Below, one piece after another: positions 7,602 through 63,221 of a DNA stretch of 64,000 bases. Every line of letters starts with the position of its first letter. The stretch's first letter is position 1. This DNA comes from Stenomitos frigidus ULC18. GTDB lineage: Bacteria; Cyanobacteriota; Cyanobacteriia; Leptolyngbyales; Leptolyngbyaceae. The DNA lies in NCBI RefSeq assembly GCF_003003795.1, contig NZ_PVWK01000017.1:62001-126000 (forward strand), read 5' to 3'. Under the pieces are notes generated by a model. The model was not told the DNA's origin. It saw only the letters and a program-made list of their open reading frames with translations, and did not search any database. The translations under genes and the position numbers were made by a program.

Positions 7602-10094
7602 TTAGCTTCTGAGGTCAACGCGGAATTTGTCGACCAGGGCTTCTCGCACTTGTTGATGGACAGGTTCGATGTCGTCATCCTTGAGCGTCCGATCGCTGGC
7701 TCGGTAAAGCAGTCGAAAAGCAAGACTACGCTGCCCTGCAGGCACATTTTCACCGCGATATTCATCGAATAAGTCGATGGATTCCAATAGCTTCCCACCC
7801 GCTTTCGTAATCACGCGCTCAATTTCAGCCACCGATACCTGGCTAGAAACAAAAAAGGCTATGTCGCGATCGGACGGTGGGTAAGTGGCAAAGGCCTGGA
7901 AGATCGGGACTCGCGCTTCATCGTGATCGAGGTGATCGAGCAGCACATCCAGATCAAGCTCAAACACATAGACTTCGTCCGGCAGACCGCGTTCTTGACG
8001 TAGTTGTGGGTGAAGCTGCCCAAAAGTGCCAAGACGATCGCCACGAATCCAGAGAGAAGCCGTACGTCCGGGATGCAGCCGCTTATCGCGGCGATCGGGC
8101 TGGTACTCGACCACTAGCCCTAAACGGCGAAAGACACTTTCTAACAGGCCCTTGGCTTCAAACCAGGTCAGTGGTTGTTCTCGTCCAGAACGGACCCATT
8201 TACCGTGCGTCGGATCGCCACCTAAAATGCCTGCAAGCGAATCGGCTTCACTCAGTCCATCCTCCTCAGACCAGAAGATACGACCGATTTCGAACGCATT
8301 TAACGGGCCATTACCTTGTTCCAGGTTGTACTGAAAGGCATCAATTAAGCCTGCCACTAGATTCGTGCGCAAGGCAGAATACTCTGAAAACAGCGGGTTT
8401 GAGAGGACAATTTGGCGTTCCTCTCCAGGTTTGCCTAGCGTGTAGTGCGTCACCTCTGTCAGCCCGATCGCGCGTAGCGTCTGCCGTAAGTTGCGACTGA
8501 TGGCTTGTTCGATCGACAGATAGCCTGCTTCAGTTTTGTCAGGCAGAGTATCACAGAAATTGTTGTACCCATAGAGGCGGGCAATTTCTTCGACGAGGTC
8601 AATTTCGCGCTCTAAGTCGCGATAGCGGTAAGGCGGCACGGTTACAGTCCAGACGCGATCGACCGTCATGGGTGAAAGATCGCAGCCCAGAGCAGTCAAG
8701 GTACGCTCCACATCTTGCGGTTGCAGTTCACTTAGCTCTTCGCCGACGGTCACGGGGCCTAGCACCTGATTCACCCGATCGAGCCGCAGTTCAATCGATC
8801 GCGCTGACGCTTGACTAGTGCGAGCATCAGCCACCGACTGAGCGACGACCACACCACCCGCGAGGTCACCAATCAGCTCGATCGCTCGACGACATGCTAC
8901 CTCAAGCTCTGCCTGGTTAACGCCGCGCTCGTAGCGTGCGGATGCCTCGGTGCGCATACCCTGCGATCGGGCAGAGCGACGAATGACAGCGGCATCAAAC
9001 AACGCCGCCTCCAGCAGCAAGCTCTGAGTGCCAGCATGAACTTCAGTCGCCTCACCACCCATCACTCCTGCCAGCGCGACTGGCTGATTGCCCGCCGTGA
9101 TCAGCAAGGTTTGCTCGTAGAGAGGGCGCGTCTGCCCATCCAAAGTTTTGAGGCTTTCGCCTGACTCCGAAAAGCGGACACCGACCTGAAGCGTTTTAAG
9201 TTTTGAGTTTTGAGTTTTGAGTTCGGGCTTTTGGCTGTCGGCTGTCGGCTGAGCGCTGACCGCTAAAAGCCGATCGCGATCGAACGCATGCAGCGGCTGT
9301 CCCCACTCCAACAAAATGTAGTTTGTGATATCGACCACATTGTTAATCGGGCGCGTTCCGGCGGCCTGTAAGCGCTGCTGGAGCCACCGAGGAGAAGGTG
9401 CGATCGTGACCTGCTCAATGACTGTACCGATATAAGTTGGGCAAGCCTGTGGTTCTGAGATTTTCAGAGTCAGGGCCTCTGCTGTCGAGGGTGCGGCGAT
9501 CGCGGCTGCTTGAGGAAACTTCAAGGTTGCGCCAGTCAATGCTGCCACTTCACGGGCAATCCCCACCATACTGAGGGCATCCGCTCGGTTTGCAGTCGAA
9601 GTCAAATCGAGAATGACGTCATCCAACCCTAAGAGCGGACGCACGTCACTGCCAACTACCAAACCGTCTGCTTCAAAGCTATGAATGCCGTCTGCCTCTT
9701 TCACCAAGCCAAGCTCTGCTAGCGAGCAAATCATGCCTTCTGAGGCGACGCCGCGTAGCTTGGCAGGCTTAATTTTGAGGCCATCTGAAACCTTTGGCAG
9801 GAAGGTGCCCAACGTTGCGACTGGCACAAAGAGACCCGCTTTGACGTTAGCCGCACCACAAACGATCGTCGAAAGGTCTGCTGCACCGATATCGACCTGG
9901 CAGACACTCAGGCGATCGGCGTTGGGATGCGGCTGGCGATCGACAACCTTACCCACAACCACCCCGTCTGCCCATGTTTGTCGATCTTCAATCTCCTCTA
10001 CCTCAAACCCTGCCATGGTCAGCATTTCTGCCAACGCCTCTGGGCTCATTGTGATGTCAACCAGTTCTCTCAACCAGTTCAAAGAAATACGCAT
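7602..10094 (-). CDS. pheT: Phenylalanine--tRNA ligase beta subunit
   Basis: The 830-residue beta subunit of the alpha2-beta2 phenylalanyl-tRNA synthetase. Domains in order: N-terminal [14 protein letters not shown]; an EMAP/tRNA-binding OB domain (about 40-150, [23 protein letters not shown]); the B3/B4 editing region; B5; the synthetase-like core ([19 protein letters not shown]); and a C-terminal ferredoxin-like anticodon-binding domain ending DKFRVDLRS. It is somewhat longer than usual because an 11-unit heptamer array (9193-9269) is translated in frame between [12 protein letters not shown] and [16 protein letters not shown]. It acts in the cytoplasm with PheS, which is not in this window, as is normal in cyanobacteria. 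Confidence 0.97.
9193..9269. repeat. In-frame heptamer array inside pheT
   Basis: Eleven consecutive 7-bp units in unbroken phase: GTTTTAA, GTTTTGA three times, GTTCGGG, CTTTTGG, CTGTCGG twice, CTGAGCG, CTGACCG, CTAAAAG. Read on the minus strand in the pheT frame they encode a polar stretch around [14 protein letters not shown], with no stop. Confidence 0.92.
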
Positions 10095-50626: not shown

Positions 50627-53467
50627 ATGATTGCAAACTCGTCTTCACCCAATACTCCGTTGCTCTGGCATACGCTTGGTGCACATCAAACCTTAGAACA
50701 ATTTCAGAGCGATCACAAAACAGGGTTGACGACGCAACAGGTCGCTGCCCATCTGAAGCAGTACGGTCCAAATGAATTAGTGGAGACGGGTGGACGTAGC
50801 ACCTGGGAGATTTTATTAGATCAGTTCACCAATATCATGCTGCTGCTGCTGGTTGCGGTGGCACTGATTTCAGGTGGCTTAGATTTCTTCGATTGGAAAG
50901 CCGGGAAGCTTGATCCAGGTGAGATTCCCTTTAAGGACACGATCGCCATTTTTGCGATCGTCATCCTGAATGGTCTGTTGGGCTATTTTCAGGAAAGTAA
51001 GGCAGAAAAAGATTTAGCCGCGCTCAAAAAGCTGGCGTCGTCCAGAGTGCGAGTCATTCGGGACAGGAAAACGCTCGAAGTGGATTCAAAGGATCTGGTT
51101 CCTGGCGATATCATGCTTCTGGAAGCCGGTGGACAAGTAGCAGCCGATGGGCGCTTGCTTGAGGCTGCAAACCTGCAAATTAGAGAATCCGCCTTGACAG
51201 GCGAGGCGCAAGCCGCCAACAAGCGGGTTGATGCTGATTTACCACCAGATACGCCGCTGGGCGATCGCATCAACCTGGTGTACCAAGGTACAGAAGTGCT
51301 TCAAGGACGGGCAGCAGTCGTCGTCACAAGTACAGGAATGCAGACCGAGCTAGGGCGCATTGCAACAATGCTCCAGTCGGTTGAAACGGAAGCCACTCCG
51401 CTACAAAAGCGCATGCAGCTACTCAGTAAAGTGCTCGTTTCAGGTGCTCTGGGGTTGGTTGCACTCGTTGTCATCGGTGGCATCATTCATTTGGGCACTG
51501 GCAGCTGGAAAGAATTGCTAGAAGTCTCGCTGAGTATGGCAGTCGCGATCGTGCCGGAAGGGCTCCCCGCCGTGATCACCGTTACCTTGGCATTGGGAAC
51601 CCAGCGCATGGTGAAGCGAAACGCGCTCATCCGCAAATTACCCGCCGTGGAAACCCTTGGCTCTGTCACCACGATTTGCTCGGATAAGACAGGCACACTG
51701 ACGCAAAACAAAATGGTGGTGCAATTGCTGCACACCAGCAGCACCTCTCTGCGCGTGACGGGTGACGGCTACGCTCCTACAGGAGAGTTTGCACCCGCTG
51801 AAGCTCAAACCAGCGCAGCGATCGATCCTCAAGAACAACCTGAACTTTTGAACTTGCTGACTGCCTGCACCATTTGTAATGACGCGGTGCTGCAACAAGA
51901 TAAGGGCAGCTGGATTATTCTGGGCGACCCGACAGAAGGAGCGTTGCTTACTCTTGCTGGCAAAGCGGGTTTTGAAAAGGATCAATGGGCCAGCAAACTG
52001 CCGCGCGTAGCTGAGTTCCCCTTTTCGTCTGAGCGTAAGCGCATGAGCGTGATCGCAGAGGTGATCGACGCCGATCCAGCATTGGTTGACAGCCCCTCCC
52101 ACTACATGATGTTCACCAAAGGATCACCAGAGCTGATTCTAGAGCGCTGTACGCAGATTCAAGTCGGTGATCGTGCGCAGGCGATCGCCGAAGCCCAACG
52201 TCAACTGATTCTAGACCAGAACAATCAGATGGCAGGACGGGGTCTGCGTGTCCTGGGTTTTGCCTGCAAGCCCCTGACGGCGATTCCCCCGGAAGGGTCG
52301 GATGAGGCCTCAGAGCGTGAATTGGTGTGGCTGGGCTTAGTCGCCATGCTAGATGCACCTCGTCCAGAAGTGCGGGACGCTGTTGCCCGGTGCCGTTCGG
52401 CAGGGATTCGTCCCATTATGATTACAGGTGACCACCAGCTGACCGCGCAAGCTGTAGCCGAAGATTTGGGCATTGCGAAACCCGGCGATCGTGCCCTCAG
52501 TGGTCGAGAATTAGAGCGCCTCAGCCTGGAAGAATTAGCGGATCAGGTCGAGCATGTCAGCGTTTATGCCCGTGTCGCACCGGAGCACAAGCTGCGTATC
52601 GTTCAAGTACTGCAGCGGAAGAATCATATTGTTGCCATGACAGGCGATGGCGTCAACGATGCCCCCGCCCTCAAGCAAGCCGATATTGGCATCGCGATGG
52701 GGATTACAGGCACTGATGTGAGTAAAGATGCCAGCGATATGGTGTTGCTAGACGACAACTTCGCCACGATCGTGGCTGCTACCGAAGAAGGGCGCGTCGT
52801 TTACACCAACATTCGTCGTTTTATCAAGTACATTCTGGGTAGCAACATTGGTGAACTGTTGACCATTGGAGCCGCGCCCTTGCTTGGCTTAGGTGGCGTA
52901 CCATTGTCGCCCCTACAAATTCTTTGGATGAATCTGGTTACAGACGGTTTGCCCGCCTTGGCGCTGGCAGTGGAACCCGCCGAACCGGATGTGATGAAGC
53001 GTCCGCCACACGATCCGAGCGAGAGTATTTTTGCGCGAGGTTTAGGCGCGTACATGATTCGGATTGGCATTGTGCTGGCAATTTTGGCGATCGGTCTCAT
53101 GTCGTGGTCCTATGGATACGCACATGCCAACCTCACTGCCGAAGATCCACACGGCGATCGGTGGAAAACAATGGTCTTCACCACGTTATGTATTGCTCAA
53201 ATGGGTCATGCTCTGGCCATCCGTTCTAATTCACGGCTGACCATTGAACTGAATCCGTTTTCCAATCCGTTCCTTTTAGCAGCGGTGTTTCTAACGTCAC
53301 TATTGCAGCTAGCATTGGTTTACGTTCCGTTCATGCGTAGCTTCTTCAATACCCATTATTTGAGCGGCTCTGAGCTTGGTATTTGTTTGGGTGTCAGCGC
53401 GCTCATGTTCATTTGGGTGGAGTTGGAAAAACTGGCGTATCGGTGGTATGCCAAGACGAGAAAGTAA
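50627..53467 (+). CDS. P-type cation ATPase, Ca2+ (P2A) type
   Basis: 946 residues. The cytoplasmic N-terminus matches P2 ATPases (cation_ATPase_N). The phosphorylation motif is [12 protein letters not shown] with D353. TM4 carries PEGLPA and TM6 [12 protein letters not shown], the Ca2+-binding signatures of the SERCA/PacL group. The hinge [18 protein letters not shown] and about 10 membrane helices complete the protein. It should export Ca2+ (or Mn2+) from the cytoplasm, as PacL does. It has its own promoter region and is followed by recF after a heptamer array. Confidence 0.93.
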
Positions 53468-53469
53468 GC

Positions 53470-53562
53470 AATTAGATCTCAGCTTTCAGCTCTCAGCATT
53501 GGCACTTTTCTTTGACGATATGATGTTCTAGCCTTCTGATAGCTGACGGCTGATAGCTGATG
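53470..53562. repeat. Heptamer array upstream of recF
   Basis: Degenerate 7-bp units of CAGCTTT/CAGCTCT and GCTGACG/GCTGATA type fill most of the gap up to the recF start codon. Confidence 0.75.
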
Positions 53563-53566
53563 GCTT

Positions 53567-54805
<1,239 letters not shown>

Positions 54806-54838
54806 GGGGTGGGCGTTGCTGGTGATTCAATCGAGCCC

Positions 54839-57800
54839 TCAAATCACCAGGCTGACTTGAGAACCCTGTTCGGTTTTGTACACTTCAATGCGAGACTGAA
54901 AGGCTTCCCGGAAGTGCGGTACATGAGTCACAGTGAGGATGCAGGCAAAGTCAGCGGCGATCGCGTTGATGGCCGCAATTAAGCGATCGCACCCTTCAGC
55001 ATCTTGTGTACCAAAGCCTTCATCGACAATGAGCATCTGCAAGGCCGTGCCCGATCGATGTGCCAGAAGGCGCGCCAGCGCTAGACGAATCGCAAAGTTG
55101 ACCCGAAACGCTTCTCCGCCCGAATAGGTTTCATAGGGACGTGTCCCATGAGCATCAGCAATCAAAATATCCAGCGTCTCGATTAGTTTGGCGTTTGGCG
55201 TAGTCTGCTTTGCCGCTGCGCTGGAGAGTTTGGCATGACGAGCCTGATCGCGACGGTGAGAGCGTTGAGTGACGAATTGAATGTGTAGTTGGTTCGCGCT
55301 GAGGCGACTGAGAATTTGGTTGGTTTCAGCCTCTAACTGTGGCAGCGCGTTTTCAATCATGAGCGCCTGAATCCCATTCTTACCAAAGGCTTGCGCCAGC
55401 TCTTGATAGATCCGTTGCTGGCGCTGAGCGGTTTGTAATTCAGCTTTGAGGTTTGAGTTTTGAGTTTTGAGGGTTTCTAGCTGCTGCTGCTGCTGCTGTA
55501 AACGACCCAGACAGGCGAGTTGCTCATCCAATTGCGATCGACGTTCCTGCCTTGCCTGCTCCAAACTCTGGATTTGAGCCTGAGCATCGGGGGTCTGCTC
55601 TAGCTGTTGCACAAGCAGCTGTACGTGCGTTTGAGCAGTCTGGTAATCGACCCCACGATCGCTTAGAGTCTGAGTCAACGCGCCAACCCGTTGCTGCGTT
55701 TGAGGATAGTGTTGGCGAGCACGCTCTAGTTCTTGATACTGAAGCTGCCAGCTTTGAGCCTGACGCAACGCCTGACGAAGTTCGTTGTGCTGTTCCACGT
55801 TGTAATCAATGACAGTCAGTTGGCGATCGAAGACGGCAAGTTGAGCAGCCGTTTCGGCCTCCAGTTGTTCAACACTGACTTGCAATTGCCCCAGTTGGGC
55901 TTGCAAATCGGGCTGACGTTGCGTCAGTTGGGCTTGTCGTCGTTGCGCTTGCTTGATTTCGGCATGGCGGATTTCTGCCCAACGCCAGCGATCGACTTCG
56001 CCGCGTGCCAGCGCATGATTTTTTTCGTCGTAGTTTAACTGTTGCAGGCTGCGATCAAGCAGTTGCAGTTCTTCTTGCAGATCCGTTGCATAGTTGCCAA
56101 GTTGGAGCGATCGTTCCAACTCAGCCGCTTCAGCCGTTACCTGTTGCAACGTTGCCTGCACAGCAACCGTCATTTGGAGCTGCTCTTGCAGTTGGCCTCG
56201 CCGTTCTAACACAGCGCTATAGGGCTTCAGCTCTTGCTCCAGGTCACGATACTCCTGGCGCATGATTTGAATTTCGCGCTCTGAAGCCGATAGCTGCTCT
56301 CGAATGACCCAAATTTGCTCAGTCACGGCTTGCTGCTCAGCCTGATGTTTTTCGAGCACCAGATGCCAGTGGTGTTTGTCGAGGGAGCGATCGCAGAGAG
56401 GGCAGGGGGGGTAGAGGGGTGTGGGGTGTGGGGTGTGGGGTGTGGAGTGTGGAGGTTCTGAGTTTTGTTCGCGAAGCGACTCCGTAGCTTTTGCTTCCCG
56501 AAGGGTAGGAGTAATTTTGAGTTCTGAGTTTTGAGTAGCGCTTTGCGCCGCTGCGCTAGAGAGGTTCGAGTGAGGAGCTTTAAGTTCTCCTTGCTCTTTT
56601 ACTCCCTCTGCTCCTCTAATTCCAGGCTCCCTCTGCTCGTCTGCTGACCGCTGACCGCTAACCGCTGACCGCTGACCGCTGACTTCTGCCTCCTCTCCCC
56701 TCTCTCCTCTCTCCTCTCCCCTCCCTTCCCGCTTCAACAACTGCATCTTCTGCTCCAGTGATGCCAACTGCGCTTCGCAGTGTCGTTGTTGCTCTTGAAG
56801 CTGTTCCATAAAGCTGCGGCGTTCTAGACCGCGTTCACGAACACGCTGCTGGTAACTCCGTCGTGCGTCCAGGGTGGTAATACGATCGCTCACTTCCAGT
56901 ACGGCTTGCTGAAGTTGAGGCTGCCGTGCCTGCTGTGCCTGAAGTTGCTGCGCCGAGGTGTGGAGTTCTTCTAGTCGAGCCGTCAGACGAGTGTGCTCAC
57001 GGTCTAGCTGGCTCTGAAGCTGCTGCTGGCGTTGCAAGAGAGGGGAAGCCTGTACCTGAAGTTGATCGAGTTCGCTGAGATGGGTTCGTGCCTGCTGGAG
57101 TTGCTGTAACGCTGCTGCAATATCGGTCGCTTTGCTCAAGGTCTGGTGTAGTTCCGTTTCTTGCTGCACCAGTGCTTCTAGCTGTGCTTCGAATTGTTGG
57201 TGCTGGCGCTGTAGCTTTGCTAAGAGTTCGTTTTGCTGGTGTTGATACTGCTGGCGCTGTGCCTGAGCACCTTGATGTGCTTGAAACCGGGTCGATAGCG
57301 CCTCTTCGTGTGCCTGTAGCGTTTGAAAGTGTTGGTAGCCAGCCACGATCGCTGCTTCTTGCTGGAGTAATGCCCCTAATTGCTGCTGCTGCTGTTGGGC
57401 AATCGTTAGCTCTTGCTGTAAGCGTTGACAATCTTGCTCCAGATGGCGCTGCTGTTGCTGCTGCCAGGTCAACTGTTGCTGCCAGGTTTGTCGCTGTTGC
57501 TGGGCGGCTTGCAACGCCTGAAGCGCTTCGCTGTCAGCAGTTTGTTCCTGCTGCATCACTGAAAGGGTGGACTCTAACAGTGCCTGTTCCTGAGCGATGC
57601 GATCGCGCTGCTGTAGCTGTTCTTGAATCGTCTCCAGGTTGCGTTCGAGTAAGTCAATCTGTCCCTTGAACTGGCGCGATTGATCCTTTGCCTGCTCTGA
57701 AACGTGATCGTACTGATCCAGCTTGAGCAAATCTGCCAGAATTTGTTTGCGCTCAGTCGGGCGTTTGAGCATGAATTCATCTGCTCGCCCCTGCCGCAGA

Positions 57801-58291
57801 TATGCCGAATTCACAAACGTTTCATAGTCCAGTTTTAAATGCTCTAAAATCAATTGCTGCGTAGCTCGAACGCCTTTGGCAGTGAGGGTGCGGAAGACGG
57901 GAGTGGAAAAGGATGAAGGATGAACGATGAAGGATGAAGGTTCAGTTGTTTTATCCTTTATCCTTTCGCCTTTATCCTTGCTTTCTCCCTTTGCTACCTG
58001 AAACTCCAGCGATGATGCCTGCCCTCGATAGCGACTGCGAAGAATGCGATAGGTTTGTTGGTTGTTGACAAAGATGAAGTCTACCTGGGCTTCTTGCGTG
58101 CCAATGTGGATCACGTCATCTTCAGCGGCGGCGCGGCTTTGCCCCCATACAGCCCACGCGATCGCCTCTAGCAAGGATGATTTACCTGCGCCATTGGCAC
58201 CACAAATACAGGCCGTATGCAAACCCCGAAAATCCAGGGTCGCTTCACGATAGCTCAGAAAGTTTTTGAGAACTAGCTTCAGTGGGATCAT
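54839..58291 (-). CDS. sbcC: SbcC/Rad50-type exonuclease subunit with several repeat-derived inserts
   Basis: About 1150 residues from ATG 58291 (MIPLKLVLKNFLSYRE); the frame extends 20 residues upstream. An SMC-like ATPase that, with the SbcD nuclease, opens hairpins and double-strand ends. The N-terminal Walker A is CGANGAGKSSLLEA. Long Gln/Glu-rich coiled coils flank the zinc hook CPLC (C630/C633, bases 56393-56404). The C-terminal signature SGGEAFRVNFAIRLALARLL precedes Walker B MLIVDEGFGTQD. Heptamer or other repeat arrays are translated inside it at 57909-57985, about 56405-56715, 55451-55471 and about 55208-55231. SbcD is not adjacent. Confidence 0.93.
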   Translation of the reverse strand: MIPLKLVLKNFLSYREATLDFRGLHTACICGANGAGKSSLLEAIAWAVWGQSRAAAEDDVIHIGTQEAQVDFIFVNNQQTYRILRSRYRGQASSLEFQVAKGESKDKGERIKDKTTEPSSFIVHPSSFSTPVFRTLTAKGVRATQQLILEHLKLDYETFVNSAYLRQGRADEFMLKRPTERKQILADLLKLDQYDHVSEQAKDQSRQFKGQIDLLERNLETIQEQLQQRDRIAQEQALLESTLSVMQQEQTADSEALQALQAAQQQRQTWQQQLTWQQQQQRHLEQDCQRLQQELTIAQQQQQQLGALLQQEAAIVAGYQHFQTLQAHEEALSTRFQAHQGAQAQRQQYQHQQNELLAKLQRQHQQFEAQLEALVQQETELHQTLSKATDIAAALQQLQQARTHLSELDQLQVQASPLLQRQQQLQSQLDREHTRLTARLEELHTSAQQLQAQQARQPQLQQAVLEVSDRITTLDARRSYQQRVRERGLERRSFMEQLQEQQRHCEAQLASLEQKMQLLKREGRGEERGERGEEAEVSGQRSAVSGQRSADEQREPGIRGAEGVKEQGELKAPHSNLSSAAAQSATQNSELKITPTLREAKATESLREQNSEPPHSTPHTPHPTPLYPPCPLCDRSLDKHHWHLVLEKHQAEQQAVTEQIWVIREQLSASEREIQIMRQEYRDLEQELKPYSAVLERRGQLQEQLQMTVAVQATLQQVTAEAAELERSLQLGNYATDLQEELQLLDRSLQQLNYDEKNHALARGEVDRWRWAEIRHAEIKQAQRRQAQLTQRQPDLQAQLGQLQVSVEQLEAETAAQLAVFDRQLTVIDYNVEQHNELRQALRQAQSWQLQYQELERARQHYPQTQQRVGALTQTLSDRGVDYQTAQTHVQLLVQQLEQTPDAQAQIQSLEQARQERRSQLDEQLACLGRLQQQQQQLETLKTQNSNLKAELQTAQRQQRIYQELAQAFGKNGIQALMIENALPQLEAETNQILSRLSANQLHIQFVTQRSHRRDQARHAKLSSAAAKQTTPNAKLIETLDILIADAHGTRPYETYSGGEAFRVNFAIRLALARLLAHRSGTALQMLIVDEGFGTQDAEGCDRLIAAINAIAADFACILTVTHVPHFREAFQSRIEVYKTEQGSQVSLVI
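55451..55471. repeat. Three-unit heptamer array inside sbcC
   Basis: GTTTGAG and TTTTGAG twice, encoding part of LKTQNSNLKAE on the minus strand. Confidence 0.8.
56405..56715. repeat. Composite repeat insert in sbcC next to the zinc hook
   Basis: About 310 bp of mixed repeats in frame. It includes GGGGTGT four times and GGAGTGT (56416-56450), TTTTGAG types (about 56515-56535), a GCCGCTGCGCTAGAGAG element (about 56547-56563) and CTGACCG/CTAACCG/CTGACTT units (56644-56685), then CTCTCCT-type units. It encodes a proline/serine/glycine-rich linker of about 100 residues ending directly before the CPLC hook. Confidence 0.88.
57909..57985. repeat. Eleven-unit heptamer array inside sbcC
   Basis: AAGGATG four times with AACGATG, AAGGTTC, AGTTGTT, TTATCCT three times, TTCGCCT and TGCTTTC, all in one 7-bp phase. 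The two halves are partly complementary. On the minus strand it encodes KDKGERIKDKTTEPSSF-like residues in the N-terminal lobe. Confidence 0.9.
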
Positions 58292-58368
58292 GCTGTGCCA
58301 ACGTTGCAGCGCTAGTTTCCAGCTTAGCAGTACGTTTGCACTTTGATACAAGTGAACTTGTTGGAGTG

Positions 58369-58438
58369 GTCAGCGGTCAGCGGTTAGCGGTCAGCTATCA
58401 GCGGTCAGCTATCAGCGGTTAGCTATCAGCGGTCAGCA
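58369..58438. repeat. Heptamer array between sbcC and rsmD
   Basis: About ten units of TCAGCGG, TTAGCGG and TCAGCTA type, tandem, in the gap between the sbcC start and the rsmD end. Confidence 0.9.
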
Positions 58439-58454
58439 GAAAAATTATTGGCGA

Positions 58455-59000
58455 TCAAATACTCGATCGATAGAACGTTAGTGCTGTGTTGCTATAAACT
58501 TTTTGACGACAAATTTCCAGCTTGGAGGGTGTTACGGCACTCCAATGATCAGAGCTATGTTCGACTGCCAATTCACCATCTGATGCTAATAGTTGAAGGT
58601 GCGCGATCGCCTCAAGCACTGGCTCATACAAATCACTTTCATAGGGTGGATCGAAGTAAATGCGATCGAATTGTTGTCCTTCTAAGGCTTTGATTCGCTG
58701 TCGCACATCACCTCGCAACACTTGAAAGGTTTGCGTTTCATTCGCCACTTGTTGCCAATTCTGTCGAATAATGGCACAAGCACGAGTCGCTTGTTCAACG
58801 CCAACCGCAACGCTTGCACCCCGACAGAGTGCTTCTGCTCCCATTGCACCACTGCCTGCACAGAGATCGAGCCAACGACAATCCGCGATCGTACCTTGCC
58901 AAATATTGAACAACGCCGATCGCACCATTGCTAGCGTGGGTCGTGTTTCTTGTCCTGGTAATGTTTTAAGTTGACGATTACCGTAAATTCGTAGACTCAT
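58455..59000 (-). CDS. rsmD: 16S rRNA (guanine(966)-N(2))-methyltransferase
   Basis: 181 residues. The family start MSLRIYGNRQLKTLPGQETRPTLAMVRSALFNI is present, then motif I WLDLCAGSGAMGAEAL and the catalytic DPPY (FDRIYFDPPYES). It methylates G966 of 16S rRNA in the small subunit. ATG start at 59000, just behind a heptamer array that carries the end of the next gene. Confidence 0.94.
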   Translation of the reverse strand: MSLRIYGNRQLKTLPGQETRPTLAMVRSALFNIWQGTIADCRWLDLCAGSGAMGAEALCRGASVAVGVEQATRACAIIRQNWQQVANETQTFQVLRGDVRQRIKALEGQQFDRIYFDPPYESDLYEPVLEAIAHLQLLASDGELAVEHSSDHWSAVTPSKLEICRQKVYSNTALTFYRSSI

Positions 59001-59004
59001 TTTT

Positions 59005-59036
59005 AGCTCTCAGCAGTCAGCGGTCAGCTTTCAGCT
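59005..59036. repeat. Heptamer array at the rsmD / four-helix-bundle boundary
   Basis: TCAGCGG/TCAGCTT-type 7-bp units. They encode the last residues (KLKADR) and stop of the four-helix-bundle gene on the minus strand. Confidence 0.8.
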
Positions 59037-59376
59037 TTTGGATTAGTGCAGTGAGCATTCGTTTGACTTCGCTTACTTCACTAGCCAGTTTCTGATGTTT
59101 AGAGGTTTCCAAAAATCCTAGATCGCAGGCAAGCAGCAAGTGATATTCCAACTCACTGGCAGAACCCATTGCCATTTGCAAGAAACGTGCAAAATCTGCA
59201 TCAGTTCCTCTACCGCAGCCTTCAGCAATGTTGGCTGGAATTGAAGCAGAAGCACGTCGCGTTTGACTGGTCAGCCCATACAACTCCTCTTTAGGGAAAA
59301 GCTTTGTTGATCGATAAACATCAAGCGTAGTTTGATGGCTTTTCTGCCAGACTTTTAGCTCCCTAAAATTTTTCAT
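59017..59376 (-). CDS. Four helix bundle protein (23S rRNA intervening-sequence type)
   Basis: 119 residues of the family often found within 23S rRNA intervening sequences: NFRELKVWQKSHQTTLDVYRS, then ELYGLTSQTRRASASIPANIAEG and SASELEYHLLLACDLGFL. It forms a homo-oligomeric four-helix bundle; a function is not established. Here it is not in an rRNA gene but between rsmD and hisH, flanked on both sides by heptamer arrays, and its last residues and stop are read from one of them. ATG start. Confidence 0.92.
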   Translation of the reverse strand: MKNFRELKVWQKSHQTTLDVYRSTKLFPKEELYGLTSQTRRASASIPANIAEGCGRGTDADFARFLQMAMGSASELEYHLLLACDLGFLETSKHQKLASEVSEVKRMLTALIQKLKADR

Positions 59377-59436
59377 CGTTAAACAATAAAGCGTACAGCT
59401 TTTTCTACTGACTCAGCTTTATAATTCCCTTGCTTG

Positions 59437-59520
59437 GCTATCAGCTATCAGCTATGAATTTCCGGCTGACCACTAAAACTCCTAGCTGACCGCTGATAGC
59501 TGACGGCTGACCGCTAACCG
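59437..59520. repeat. Heptamer array between the four-helix-bundle gene and hisH
   Basis: Units of ATCAGCT, GCTGACC, GCTGATA and GCTGACG types. The part at 59482-59520 is the 3' end of hisH. Confidence 0.85.
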
Positions 59521-60153
59521 AACGAAGTTCGCCAGGATTTGTAGTCCCGATGTCGATGATTTCTCTGGATGAAATTGAACTGCCATTAAATTAGCTTGCT
59601 CGTTGGCGAAGCCTGTTGCGGAGCAATGTATCGCTGCTGTCACTGTTTGACTGCCGTGAGTAATCGTTGCAGCACGTACGTTTGGATCGATCGGATCAAC
59701 ATAATAAGAATGCACAAAGTACAGCCACGGATCGACTGGAAGGTTTTGCCAAAGGGGTGAGTTGGTTTGCGTGAGTTCTAGCTGATTCCAGCCCATGTGT
59801 GGAATCGTAATGCCGGGTTCGTGTCGGAAGCGTTTGACGGTGCCTGCGACGATGCCTAAACCGGGTTCTTTGCCTTCTTCGCTCGACTCAAAGAGAATTT
59901 GCAACCCCAGGCAAATGCCCAAAAACGGTTTGCCGCTGGCGATCGCTTGTTTAATGGGCGCTTCCAGGTGGCGCGATCGCAAATGTTGCACAGCTGGATC
60001 AAAGGAGCCAACACCCGGTAACACGATCGCATCCGCTTGTTCCAACTCGGCTGGAGAATCGGTGATTTTGGGAGTCGCACCGGCTTTCTCTAGCCCTTTG
60101 CAGGCAGAGTGCAGGTTGCCCATGTCGTAATCCACCACTGCGATCGTCGGCAT
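59482..60153 (-). CDS. hisH: Imidazole glycerol phosphate synthase, glutamine amidotransferase subunit
   Basis: 223 residues. The class I glutaminase Cys is in GICLGLQILF (about C80) and the His/Glu pair is in VQFHPEKSS. It supplies ammonia to HisF in histidine synthesis. The body ends normally at ILANFVR, after which LAVSRQLSAVS and the TAG stop are encoded by heptamer repeats, an extension not seen in the family. HisF is not in the window. ATG start. Confidence 0.95.
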   Translation of the reverse strand: MPTIAVVDYDMGNLHSACKGLEKAGATPKITDSPAELEQADAIVLPGVGSFDPAVQHLRSRHLEAPIKQAIASGKPFLGICLGLQILFESSEEGKEPGLGIVAGTVKRFRHEPGITIPHMGWNQLELTQTNSPLWQNLPVDPWLYFVHSYYVDPIDPNVRAATITHGSQTVTAAIHCSATGFANEQANLMAVQFHPEKSSTSGLQILANFVRLAVSRQLSAVS

Positions 60154-60234
60154 CGTCTGTCCCTTTATGCGCGTTCACTCTCTAAAATTGTAGTCTGCAA
60201 GCACCGTAGTCTACCCATCGTGTAGAAACGCCCC

Positions 60235-60277
60235 TGCTCCCTGCTCCCTCTGCTCCCCCTGTTCCCTCTGCCTTCTT
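60235..60277. repeat. CTGCTCC-type heptamer array
   Basis: Pyrimidine-rich units CTGCTCC, CTGTTCC and similar, directly before the small gene at 60281. Confidence 0.65.
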
Positions 60278-60280
60278 CTT

Positions 60281-60544
60281 ATGTTCAAAGTTGTCACACC
60301 ACGCTTTTCGCAAACCTTCGATCGCTGGACGGATGCCCTCAACACTGCTAAATCACTGATGCCTGAATGCAAAAGCCTGACAGAAGACATTCGTATCTTT
60401 CTGTTTGACGAGTTGGTGTGGGTCTACAGTCGGCTGCACAAATACCCGCAATACATCGGTGCAGGGATATACGATCGCCTCGCTAAAGTCTTTTTGCAAG
60501 AAGCAATGGAAGACGAGACAGAAGCAGGCGAAGACATGCAGTAG
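60281..60544 (+). CDS. Small cyanobacterial protein
   Basis: 87 residues, mostly helical: FKVVTPRFSQTFDRWTDALNTAKSL, EDIRIFLFDELVWVYSRLHKYPQYIGAGIYDRLAKVFLQEAME and an acidic end. The sharply conserved-looking pattern suggests a real gene in cyanobacteria, without known function. ATG start; no clear neighbour link. Confidence 0.75.
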   Translation: MFKVVTPRFSQTFDRWTDALNTAKSLMPECKSLTEDIRIFLFDELVWVYSRLHKYPQYIGAGIYDRLAKVFLQEAMEDETEAGEDMQ

Positions 60545-60908
60545 AACGACCCACTCAGCCGTCGTTCCGCGTGTATGAAATGAGTTCAGAGTGTTTGAAT
60601 TCGTTACAAAACGTTAGACACCTGTCCTGGAAGCGATGAGTCCAGGTTATACAGTCCTACCCTCAAAGCATAGAAGCTGAAGACAAACGCCACCACTGCT
60701 TTCGCAGTAAGAATTTCATCCGAGCAATAGTAGGTGGGGCTTGTGTCATTTGATTGAATTAATTAAATTCTGCTTAAATGAGCGTCGATCGCCTGGCTTT
60801 TGTATATTTTCAGCCAAGCGAACGATACGTATCACATTAAAAGCCTTAGTATGAAGACGTTAACAAAAGTTTGTTTTTCACGCATTTTAATTTTAGAGTT
60901 TTTACTAT
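60545..60908. other. Gap upstream of the NACHT gene
   Basis: About 360 bp, AT-richer than the rest before the start. No ORF, RNA or repeat was assigned with confidence. It includes the probable NACHT promoter near its AT-rich end. Confidence 0.45.
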
Positions 60909-63221
60909 ATGGTCAAGCGATCGCTTCAGGCATCATTGCCTGGTATTCAAAAGGCTAAAAAAGCGTTTGCCCTCAAGGGCTGGACGCAAGAAAATCTAGC
61001 GGGGGAAGTGGACTTAAAGACGCGCCAACCCATTTGGCGCTTTTTAACAGGGCAACCCGTTGAGCGTCAGGTTTTTCTCAATCTTTGTGCGGTACTGGAC
61101 TTAGACTGGCGAGACGTTGCCGTTGATCCACCCGCAGACTCTGCTCGATTGGACGGGAACGGTCACTCTACAGCGTTCGAGTTGGATGCCCTGGTGCAGC
61201 AGGTGCGATCGCGGCGATACAACAAAATTCAAGACCAGTGCGGCATCTTGCAACTCCTGGATATCAGCCGACCCGTCAGCATTGATGACATCTACGTTGA
61301 TGTCAACATTTTGGAAGAAATCGCGAGCCAGCAGTGGAGCGCGATCGAAGACCTGAAGAGTTTGGGACCTGAAGCATTCGATCGCTTTGGGTTGGGCACG
61401 GTCGATCAAAAACAAATACCAGGCACACGAGCAGTCGAAACCTACCCAAAACTCCGAGTGCTAGGCAGACCCGGCGTTGGCAAAACCACGTTCCTACAGT
61501 ATCTCGCTATCCAGTGCAATCGCGGCGAGTTTGCAGCAAACCAGGTGCCCGTCTTTATTGCACTGAAAGACTTTGCAGAAGAATCCAGAGTCAGCGGTGA
61601 GTACAGCCTGTTAAGCTACATCCGTCAAGAATGGCTCACCTCTGGGATTGTTGACCCCTCTGTTATTGAAACCCTGGCTCAAGCAGGCAGAGTGTTGCTG
61701 TTGCTAGATGGCATGGATGAAGTGCTGAACCATGAGAGCACAGGCGTCTTACGCGAAATGCGCCGCTTTGCAGACAAATATCACAAAAATCGGTTTGTGG
61801 TGACCTGTCGTACAGCCGCGCAAAAGCTCAGGCTACGGGGCTTTACCGATGTCGAAATTGCCCCTTTTACCCATGACCAGATTAACGCCTTTGCCCAAAA
61901 ATGGTTTGTTGCCTTTAGCAAGACGACCGCTCAGGCAGGAAAGGCAGAATCGCTGCACTTTATGCAAAAGCTGGAGTTGCCGGAGAACTGGCAGTTTCGC
62001 CAACTCATTGCCACGCCGCTGTTTCTGCACCTTGCCTGTTGGGTGTTTCATGGTCAAGCAAAGTTTCCGACGAAGCGCACGGAGTTTTACAAGCAAGGGC
62101 TAGACCTGTTGTTGGGCAAATGGGATGAAGCGAGAGGTGTTGAACGAGACGACGTCTATCGAGATTTTTTATTGCCCCAAAAGCTCAAGCTGTTGAGCCA
62201 GATTGCCGCGACATCGTTTGAGCGGGGACAGTACTTCTTTGAGCAGCGGGTGCTGGAACAATACATCGGCGACTACATGCGAACGCTGACGGATGTACCG
62301 ATAGAGCCAGAAGCCCTGCAGCTTGAAAGCGAAGCGGCACTGAAGGCGATCGAAGCGCAGCATGGGCTACTGGTCGAACGGGCGCGCGGGGTGTTTTCCT
62401 TCTCGTATCTGGCATTTCAAGAATATTTTACGGCGCGAAACATCGTTGCCAGCTACAACCTGGAGGCCTTTGAGCAGGCATTGGGTGGACTGGTCAGCCA
62501 CATCACCGACCCCCACTGGCGCGAAATCTTTTTGCTCACTACTGCCATGCTGCGGAGTGCCGACTCGCTCATGCAGTTGATGAAGCAACAAATTGATGCG
62601 CTAGTTGCCAAAGACCCTTACCTGCAGGAGTTTTTAACCTGGGCAAGCCAAGAATCACAGACGACTCCGTCGCCACCCAAGGTTGCAGCCGGGCGAGCCT
62701 TTTACCTGGCGCTGGCACGGACACCGTATGTGGCGTCTCAATTTGTCTTAGCCAACACGCTTGATCAGGGGATGTTTCTGGATGCTGCCTTGGATGACCT
62801 GTTGTTGGAATGCGCGCTCGAAGACAGCCAGGAGTTTGCTTATACTCATGCCTGTGGGGATGCGCTTAACAATATCCTGGTCATGGTGCTGGATGCTGGC
62901 TTTCAAAAATCGCTGCAGCAGCTCAAAGAGAAATTGCCCAGCCCCAACCAAAATCAGCATCAGTTCCAAACCTGGTGGCGCTTGCACCATACGGTATGGA
63001 TCGAACAATTGACCACCACGATCGCCGACTACCGCCACACTCATCATCACTGGACGTTTAGCCCTGAGCAACAGCAAACGCTGCAACGTTATTACGATGC
63101 CAACCAACTGCTGCTGGATTGTTTACGCAGCAACTCCGAGATCACAGCCACGATTCGGCAAGAAATTGAAGCGACGTTGTTGTTGCCACAGAAAGAACTG
63201 GAAGAAAGAGAGTGGGAGTAA
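60909..63221 (+). CDS. HTH-NACHT NTPase (STAND family)
   Basis: 770 residues. Residues 1-75 (SLQASLPGIQKAKKAFALKGWTQENLAGEV) are an HTH-like domain seen at the N-terminus of cyanobacterial NACHT proteins. A NACHT module follows: Walker A GRPGVGKTT (G186-T194), IALKDFAEES, Walker B RVLLLLDGMDEV (D267, D270, E271) and the sensor VVTCRTAAQ (about 297-305). A helical region with a winged-helix part follows (about 390-520: FSFSYLAFQEYFTARNI is typical of NACHT C-halves), and the last 200 residues are a helical sensor-like end without clear leucine-rich repeats. STAND NTPases switch between inactive and oligomeric states on ligand binding; bacterial NACHT (bNACHT) genes have anti-phage activity. 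Ligand and effector here are unknown. Confidence 0.88.
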   Translation: MVKRSLQASLPGIQKAKKAFALKGWTQENLAGEVDLKTRQPIWRFLTGQPVERQVFLNLCAVLDLDWRDVAVDPPADSARLDGNGHSTAFELDALVQQVRSRRYNKIQDQCGILQLLDISRPVSIDDIYVDVNILEEIASQQWSAIEDLKSLGPEAFDRFGLGTVDQKQIPGTRAVETYPKLRVLGRPGVGKTTFLQYLAIQCNRGEFAANQVPVFIALKDFAEESRVSGEYSLLSYIRQEWLTSGIVDPSVIETLAQAGRVLLLLDGMDEVLNHESTGVLREMRRFADKYHKNRFVVTCRTAAQKLRLRGFTDVEIAPFTHDQINAFAQKWFVAFSKTTAQAGKAESLHFMQKLELPENWQFRQLIATPLFLHLACWVFHGQAKFPTKRTEFYKQGLDLLLGKWDEARGVERDDVYRDFLLPQKLKLLSQIAATSFERGQYFFEQRVLEQYIGDYMRTLTDVPIEPEALQLESEAALKAIEAQHGLLVERARGVFSFSYLAFQEYFTARNIVASYNLEAFEQALGGLVSHITDPHWREIFLLTTAMLRSADSLMQLMKQQIDALVAKDPYLQEFLTWASQESQTTPSPPKVAAGRAFYLALARTPYVASQFVLANTLDQGMFLDAALDDLLLECALEDSQEFAYTHACGDALNNILVMVLDAGFQKSLQQLKEKLPSPNQNQHQFQTWWRLHHTVWIEQLTTTIADYRHTHHHWTFSPEQQQTLQRYYDANQLLLDCLRSNSEITATIRQEIEATLLLPQKELEEREWE

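Follow-up and report, generated by a model that had tools for sequence, protein, structure and literature searches.

Why does a stretch of 110 residues, built in good part from short DNA repeats, stand directly beside the zinc hook of an SbcC protein? The hook joins two molecules of Rad50 or SbcC, and this joint of the Mre11-Rad50 machine is regarded as compact and conserved. In the window (the whole 64,000-nucleotide stretch of cyanobacterial DNA that was analysed), the residues that lead into this joint are neither compact nor conserved. The initial annotation had described them as a repeat-built insert that should add a flexible segment at the apex of the coiled coil and could change hook geometry. 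The gene, the linker, its counterparts in other cyanobacteria, the structure predicted for the hook and the source of the repeats are taken in turn below.

The sbcC gene and its hook

The gene occupies 54839–58351 on the minus strand and encodes 1170 amino acids from a TTG, or 1150 from the likely ATG at 58291. Its naming as SbcC is borne out by a profile search, in which it scores 488.4 bits with TIGR00618 (the curated cut-off is 478.5). Pfam places ATPase lobes at both ends (AAA_23 at 25–247 and SbcC_Walker_B at 1070–1129), and the ATPase motifs GANGAGKSS, YSGGEA and LIVDEGFG were located. A gene for the partner, SbcD, with TIGR00619 above its cut-off, is on a contig (G000:C164) other than that of sbcC. 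By its domains and this partner in the genome the ORF is SbcC; SbcCD nuclease activity and a zinc-mediated dimer are predictions from the sequence. The zinc-hook motif CPLC (56393–56404, minus strand) begins at residue 650 from the TTG and 630 from the likely ATG, in agreement with the C630/C633 first noted, and in the model this CxxC at the coiled-coil apex is flanked by long helices on either side.

The frame runs through 54839–58351 without the interruption that would have pointed to a sequencing error. Assembly error and a pseudogene were ruled out as readings of the insert because the frame is open and because in-frame inserts occur at the identical site in five other genomes of the genus.

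Two further variable inserts are present in the protein. One, in the N-terminal ATPase lobe (57896–57991, minus strand), also bears repeats and is variable in congeners, which have EAGEAGEAGE or HPTPHTPHPTP repeats there. The other is short and lies about 20 residues before SGGE (55187–55237, minus strand). Just upstream of sbcC, at 58368–58437, is a ten-unit GGTCAGC-type array, before a Cons_hypoth95 methyltransferase gene. An ORF of PF05635 (the 23S rRNA intervening-sequence protein family) at 59017–59376 on the minus strand has the methyltransferase gene on one side and a class-I glutamine amidotransferase gene on the other. The genome has a second SbcC/Rad50-like ATPase gene (L003, on G000:C43, with a frame of 923 aa). 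Frames like it, of 924–945 aa, were matched in five congeners, including the one that gave no SbcC (G003, below).

Composition of the linker

Measured from the end of the conserved coil 1 to the hook, the linker is 110 residues long (56405–56734, minus strand), in frame and directly N-terminal to CPLC. It is thus slightly wider than the 56405–56715 first noted; that it is built of repeats and ends right before CPLC was correctly seen. Proline, serine and glycine make up 30% of it and 10% of the remaining SbcC, so that its description as Pro/Ser/Gly-rich holds, though the commonest single residue is glutamate (17 of 110). V, I, L, M, F, W, Y and C together account for 11% of the linker as against 28% elsewhere in the protein.

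The heptameric character of the DNA is pronounced. Its self-identity at lag 7 is 0.52 (z = 9.3 against 400 dinucleotide shuffles), and an equal-length segment upstream in sbcC, taken as control, gives z = −3.5. Tandem Repeats Finder reports three heptamer arrays, GGGGTGT (5.3 copies), GCTGACC (5.9) and CCTCTCC (4.6). In reading order, all on the minus strand, the linker starts with a block of purine-rich heptamers (56684–56734), encoding KREGRGEERGERGEEAE, and continues with about six GTCAGCG units (56642–56683), which encode 14 residues and whose heptamers recur at many places in the genome. After a spacer comes a dispersed 57-bp module (56516–56572) encoding HSNLSSAAAQSATQNSELK, to which a peptide in the linker of CobB is similar. 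It is followed by a module (56453–56515) with the short palindromic cores CCCTTCGGG and TTCGCGAA, which encodes ITPTLREAKATESLREQNSEP and has copies elsewhere in the genome that are up to 91% identical. The last block, of CCCACAC units (56405–56452), encodes PHSTPHTPHPTPLYPP and reads as the G-rich GGGGTGT on the plus strand, the template strand of sbcC. The earlier view that several heptamer families make up the stretch is therefore right for the three arrays and wrong for its middle (about 56453–56572), where non-tandem dispersed modules are accompanied by a short ACTCAAA run.

Inverted repeats of at least 10 nt with both arms inside the linker are absent, which rules out a long hairpin pairing the purine-rich with the pyrimidine-rich half. 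Structured RNA was likewise rejected (fold z 0.89, with 81 of 100 shuffles folding at least as well), and there is no Rfam match within 52000–61000. A slipped frame in the linker would meet a stop within 4–39 codons of the tract starts examined.

Linkers of other cyanobacterial SbcC proteins

A search of the class found matches in 179 of 214 genomes. The loci surveyed were 80 regions hand-picked over families, together with loci from other genome searches. The hook scan looked for CxxC with SGGE and DExFG downstream and was passed by 148 of 181 loci. Among those that failed are many repeat places and other genes, and also four loci (L057, L071, L087 and L158) that had been expected to pass. 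Some genomes are present a second time as named records. Merging of identical sequences left 128 distinct proteins, or 126 without L059 (from an actinomycete) and L153, neither of which has an anchor match. With KNEEAV-CPLC at its hook, L153 appears to be of the short kind. Of the four that failed the scan, L087 and L057 have a long linker with PP at its end; in L158, whose frame lacks the DExFG pattern, the linker is short, and L071 begins at the hook. None of these is counted; four uncounted rows, judged by eye, fit the division described next. A CPxC is present in all 126, the loci having been chosen by CxxC.

Linker length on the N side of the hook is bimodal. It is 5–7 residues in 53 of the 126 proteins and 14–110 in the other 73, and no linker of 8–13 residues was found among them. 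The linker of the window is the longest. Long linkers characterize the genus: six of its seven genomes, the window's own included, gave an SbcC (the seventh, G003, gave a weak match to another protein alone), and all six linkers are long and in frame, with lengths of 110, 105, 81, 64, 63 and 62 residues and differing content. The two classes also end differently. [YFL]PP closes 59 of the 73 long linkers and PP closes none of the 53 short ones, 47 of which have P-x-A. The initial annotation had considered that the stretch might be present with conserved residues in distant cyanobacteria. A long linker is indeed present there; conserved residues were not seen within the long linkers, where the terminal [YFL]PP alone recurs. 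Pooled, the long linkers are 27% proline, serine and glycine, and their flanks 6% and 8%.

In an insertion profile of 101 of the 126 proteins, 49 of them with long linkers, the N side of the hook is the main site, with a mean of 45 residues. The next, with a mean of 7, is in the ATPase lobe, where repeats also occur in this genus. On the C side of the hook, the first site with an insert of at least 8 residues comes 107 columns on.

Heptamers are far from universal. Lag-7 z exceeds 3 in 11 of the 73 long linkers and in 0 of 73 matched upstream segments. The 11 belong to five of the six genus members (the window's own included), four other rows of family f1 and two of family f23; in L013, the remaining genus member, z is 2.6. 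A strong heptamer signal is lacking in the other 62, some of which have other periods (L140: lag 15, 0.71). Repeats are therefore one filler among several. The linkers of L088, L140 and L110 carry repeats of their own (NYTSSNHASSNHASSNYTSG, SKSSRSKSSRSKSS and ERASERASERASER), the best lags being 15, 15 and 12 bases.

Among 18 pairs of relatives, 17 have linkers that are less similar than their C-terminal parts (identity was taken over the shorter linker, with no random baseline). Compared with four congeners, the window protein has identities of 0.32–0.60 in the linker and 0.78–0.88 in the C-terminal part, the extremes being the nearest congener (0.60 and 0.88) and L013 (0.32 and 0.78). The exception is the pair L077/L079, with linkers of 16 residues (0.94 against 0.88). 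Some other pairs come close (0.90 and 0.96; 0.93 and 0.98), and the linkers of genus g12, of 26–30 residues, are steady, with identities of 0.73 and 0.90 in the two pairs compared. Three members of the window's genus have 3, 5 and 4 perfect CCCACAC units. The differences are not multiples of three and the frame is kept, so the changes are probably balanced elsewhere in the linker. A viral source of the hook relatives was also considered; viral contigs gave no confirmed match.

History of the long linker

Trees were built with FastTree and a quick IQ-TREE run on the part of SbcC from CPLC to the end, leaving the linker out. On both, the long/short label needs 8 changes, compared with about 40 when shuffled, and the well-supported branches force at least 3 or 4. 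One all-long clade of 35 rows holds every row of family f1 (support 92). A second, of 26 rows, consists of f23, f3 and one named relative (support 98). The two join with one short row (L109) at an unresolved fork, and neither contains a short linker. The six-residue state was seen only in families other than the window's own, and lengths run from 16 to 110 residues within one family. The heptamer-signal label needs 7 changes.

A single origin of all long linkers was rejected (p-AU 0.00106, for a group named after the data were seen and on a quick LG+G4 tree), and the long state has therefore been gained or lost more than once. Holding the [YFL]PP linkers together against the short ones was not rejected (p-AU 0.374), and this main form may be one event. 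The change probably ran from short to long, the short form of about six residues being ancestral. This direction is suggested by a profile with short-linker rows first, which matches the Pyrococcus furiosus Rad50 hook structures 1L8D (E 4e-6) and 6ZFF (1.1e-5) and whose alignment to 1L8D runs through the hook ungapped, with about six residues before CPxC. The HMMER alignment to 6ZFF, a structure that covers more of this hook, has 14 additional residues upstream, in a different coil register. A clean empty site in close relatives, which the initial annotation had led one to expect of a discrete insertion, was sought without success among genus members and family-f1 rows: the six members found and the 35 rows of the f1 clade are all long.

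Predicted structure of the hook region

AlphaFold2 was run on single chains, for a 285-residue segment of the window protein (16 sequences) and for a short-linker relative (13 sequences). The window model has a helix to residue 114, an irregular stretch (block pLDDT 39–61 over 111–210), bridge-type residues at 215 and 222 around CPLC (C216) and a helix from 225. In the short-linker model the first helix ends at 85, C92 lies between bridge-type residues at 91 and 98, and the next helix starts at 101. In both, the bridge-type residues are at identical places, one before the first cysteine of CPxC and the other sixth after it. These predictions suggest that the hook hairpin is alike with and without the long linker, and so do not indicate the change in hook geometry that had been proposed. 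The flexible segment at the apex fares better. Low pLDDT in the linker is no proof of disorder, and the residue composition agrees with it; the linker is probably flexible or disordered. Foldseek ranked 1L8D first for the short-linker model (E 8.1e-3; TM 0.86 by target and 0.50 by query), with no match below E 0.001.

Repeats elsewhere in the genome

The 330 bp of linker DNA match at least 56 stretches of their own genome at E up to 0.001, themselves included. This is a lower bound, for 40 of 448 first-look candidates were scored, and some of the stretches lie side by side. A 330-bp control from the post-hook part of sbcC matches itself alone. Triples of GTCAGCG occur at 191 genome positions (up to one mismatch, overlaps counted) and the reversed pattern at none. 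The GGGGTGT pattern has 29 positions, a count without a useful control because this pattern reads identically backwards.

Of the nine best other places, five are inside ORFs, one overlaps the end of a pfkB-type gene and three are clear of any ORF with at least 80 aa. By Pfam the five ORFs (L183, L184, L185, L186 and L190) are FGE-sulfatase/DinB, CobB, LeuA/homocitrate-synthase-like, DAO oxidase and TPR. The CobB insert NSKLTSVAAQSATQNSKL corresponds to HSNLSSAAAQSATQNSELK of SbcC: a single module is shared, in one frame, by two unrelated proteins. Across the genus this CobB site varies in each of the six genomes that gave CobB, as does a loop site of RecF in each of the seven that gave RecF (own genome included in both). 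In the window, recF is on the plus strand, adjoining sbcC and convergent with it, and has an in-frame repeat-bearing loop (54065–54217). Of the 12 arrays of period 7 or 14 in the window, seven fall within ORFs that have 150 aa or more. The sbcC gene accounts for four of these, and another is in an ORF of 278 aa that has no Pfam match and is perhaps not a gene. A GTTTTGA heptamer array at 9193–9223 is inside an ORF (7602–10094, minus strand) with phenylalanyl-tRNA synthetase beta-chain domains.

Interpretation

The account that we consider fairly likely is of a derived, insertion-tolerant and hypervariable tether, whose frame is kept by selection and which in this genus is filled from dispersed repeats. 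The ancestral SbcC would have had some six residues between coil 1 and hook, and several cyanobacterial lineages would have widened this to 14–110, mostly with CPLC preceded by a [Y/F/L]PP cap. Carried on coil 2, the CPxC hairpin would still form and pair with that of a second SbcC through zinc, and coil 1 would be tied to it by a loose loop bulging out at the apex. We propose that exposure of the loop, together with the self-contained nature of the hook hairpin, may allow linker sequence to be tolerated, with a near-neutral role, provided that the frame stays open. In the genus, dispersed heptamer arrays and short modules would enter and slip, and content would turn over between sister species; selection would hold the frame and CPLC as the loop absorbs in-frame DNA supplied by the genome. 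Such tolerance is plausible because in fission yeast a Rad50 with a MukB hinge in place of its hook is functional, and in E. coli the hook of SbcC is believed to have enough flexibility for twisting, according to the accessible part of one paper (PMC6969161). Being built from dispersed repeats, the linker thus shows repeat DNA absorbed into a core repair protein with the frame kept. The steady linkers (those of g12 and of L077/L079) and the 62 of 73 without a strong heptamer signal count against a tolerant, repeat-filled tether.

The main rival is that the linker itself is selected: its length or charge would give the apex reach or looseness (for twist, ring opening or partner binding), and the repeats would be merely material. 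It has this standing because the long state is retained throughout clades of 35 and 26 rows, the range of 8–13 residues is empty and the [YFL]PP cap is recurrent; the cap and the all-long clades are more than pure tolerance predicts. The steadier linkers of g12 also speak for it. Set against these are the lack of conserved residues seen inside the linker, the spread of 16–110 residues within one family and the tens of residues by which sister species differ. We think this reading unlikely, a selected function for linker length being nevertheless possible.

A bolder proposal is that in this cyanobacterial clade the zinc hook is no longer a tight turn but has become a tether, with a [YF]PP cap, whose length can evolve, heptamer slippage in sbcC being both dial and frameshift switch. 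It is a long shot. If true, the dial and switch would tune a genome-maintenance machine that acts on repeat and hairpin DNA like that feeding the linker.

A contingency locus, in which slippage by one or two heptamer units frameshifts sbcC off and on in subpopulations, has in its favour that such a change does shift the frame, with a stop soon met, and that tract unit numbers differ among genus members. The six members are nevertheless all in frame and the tracts are short and partly imperfect, and the reading seems very improbable. Equally hard to credit is a role for the DNA itself, with the peptide as by-product, whether as a regulatory or recombination site or through a putative G-quadruplex of GGGGTGT in the template strand. 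Four GGGG runs spaced by TGT are present on the plus strand, and related G-rich heptamers form quadruplexes in vitro, as reported in the available portion of PMC4692102. Against this, the single-strand RNA fold is no better than that of shuffles, Rfam matches are absent from 52000–61000 and most long linkers are without a strong heptamer signal. A recent single insertion in this strain, changing hook geometry, would suit the longest of 126 linkers and its repeat-built nature, but is largely refuted by the survey, with same-site long linkers in all six genus members found and throughout the f1 clade. The like prediction of the hairpin in both models also speaks against it, and it has next to no probability left.

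Comparison with known systems

Taken individually, SbcC, dispersed heptamers in cyanobacteria and dispersed repeats in frame within genes are already known kinds. The Rad50 hook of P. furiosus (1L8D, 6ZFF) has, like the protein of the window, a CPxC in a short hairpin between two antiparallel coils. It differs in that the compact hook of 1L8D has no counterpart to the 110 residues that here separate coil 1 from hook, so that the window protein is not of the short-linker type. In the accessible part of PMC6969161 the Rad50 hook is described as a hairpin loop of 14 residues.

A paper that we take to be Rehm et al. 2015 deals with heptameric repeats in Nostoc and Xanthomonas. As there, tandem heptamers in a cyanobacterium are dispersed and partly within genes (PMC4692102, in the part available), and the window's genome shows the same genome-wide dispersal. 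The available text gives 68% of the heptamers as intergenic in the Nostoc genome studied and has nothing on linkers in proteins. It gives the Nostoc unit as GGGGA(C/T)T; those of the sbcC linker, by Tandem Repeats Finder, are GGGGTGT, GTCAGCG, CCTCTCC and ACTCAAA-like, and the linker joins several such units with non-tandem modules. Beyond PMC4692102, little literature was found on cyanobacterial heptamers inside genes.

The Rickettsia palindromic elements provide a parallel for in-frame presence. According to the accessible portion of PMC10969869, they are dispersed repeats, of about 150 bp and in ten families, that are in frame in unrelated conserved genes, as the repeats here are in those for SbcC, CobB, RecF and others. 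The linker differs in being a mosaic of heptamers and short modules, in which a palindromic element of about 150 bp is absent.

What appears to be new is the combination of SbcC with in-frame dispersed repeats, and the two-state hook linker; neither was seen among the titles and abstracts from searches of the open-access literature. That none of these deals with long hook linkers in cyanobacteria is weak evidence that they are unreported. Because natural SbcC proteins range from 5 to 110 residues at this place, they allow a direct approach to the question of how much geometry the joint requires. Dispersed short-repeat DNA has, moreover, been taken in frame into several conserved proteins, at shared sites and with fast turnover, a clear example from bacteria in which the rules of protein tolerance can be read from sister species.
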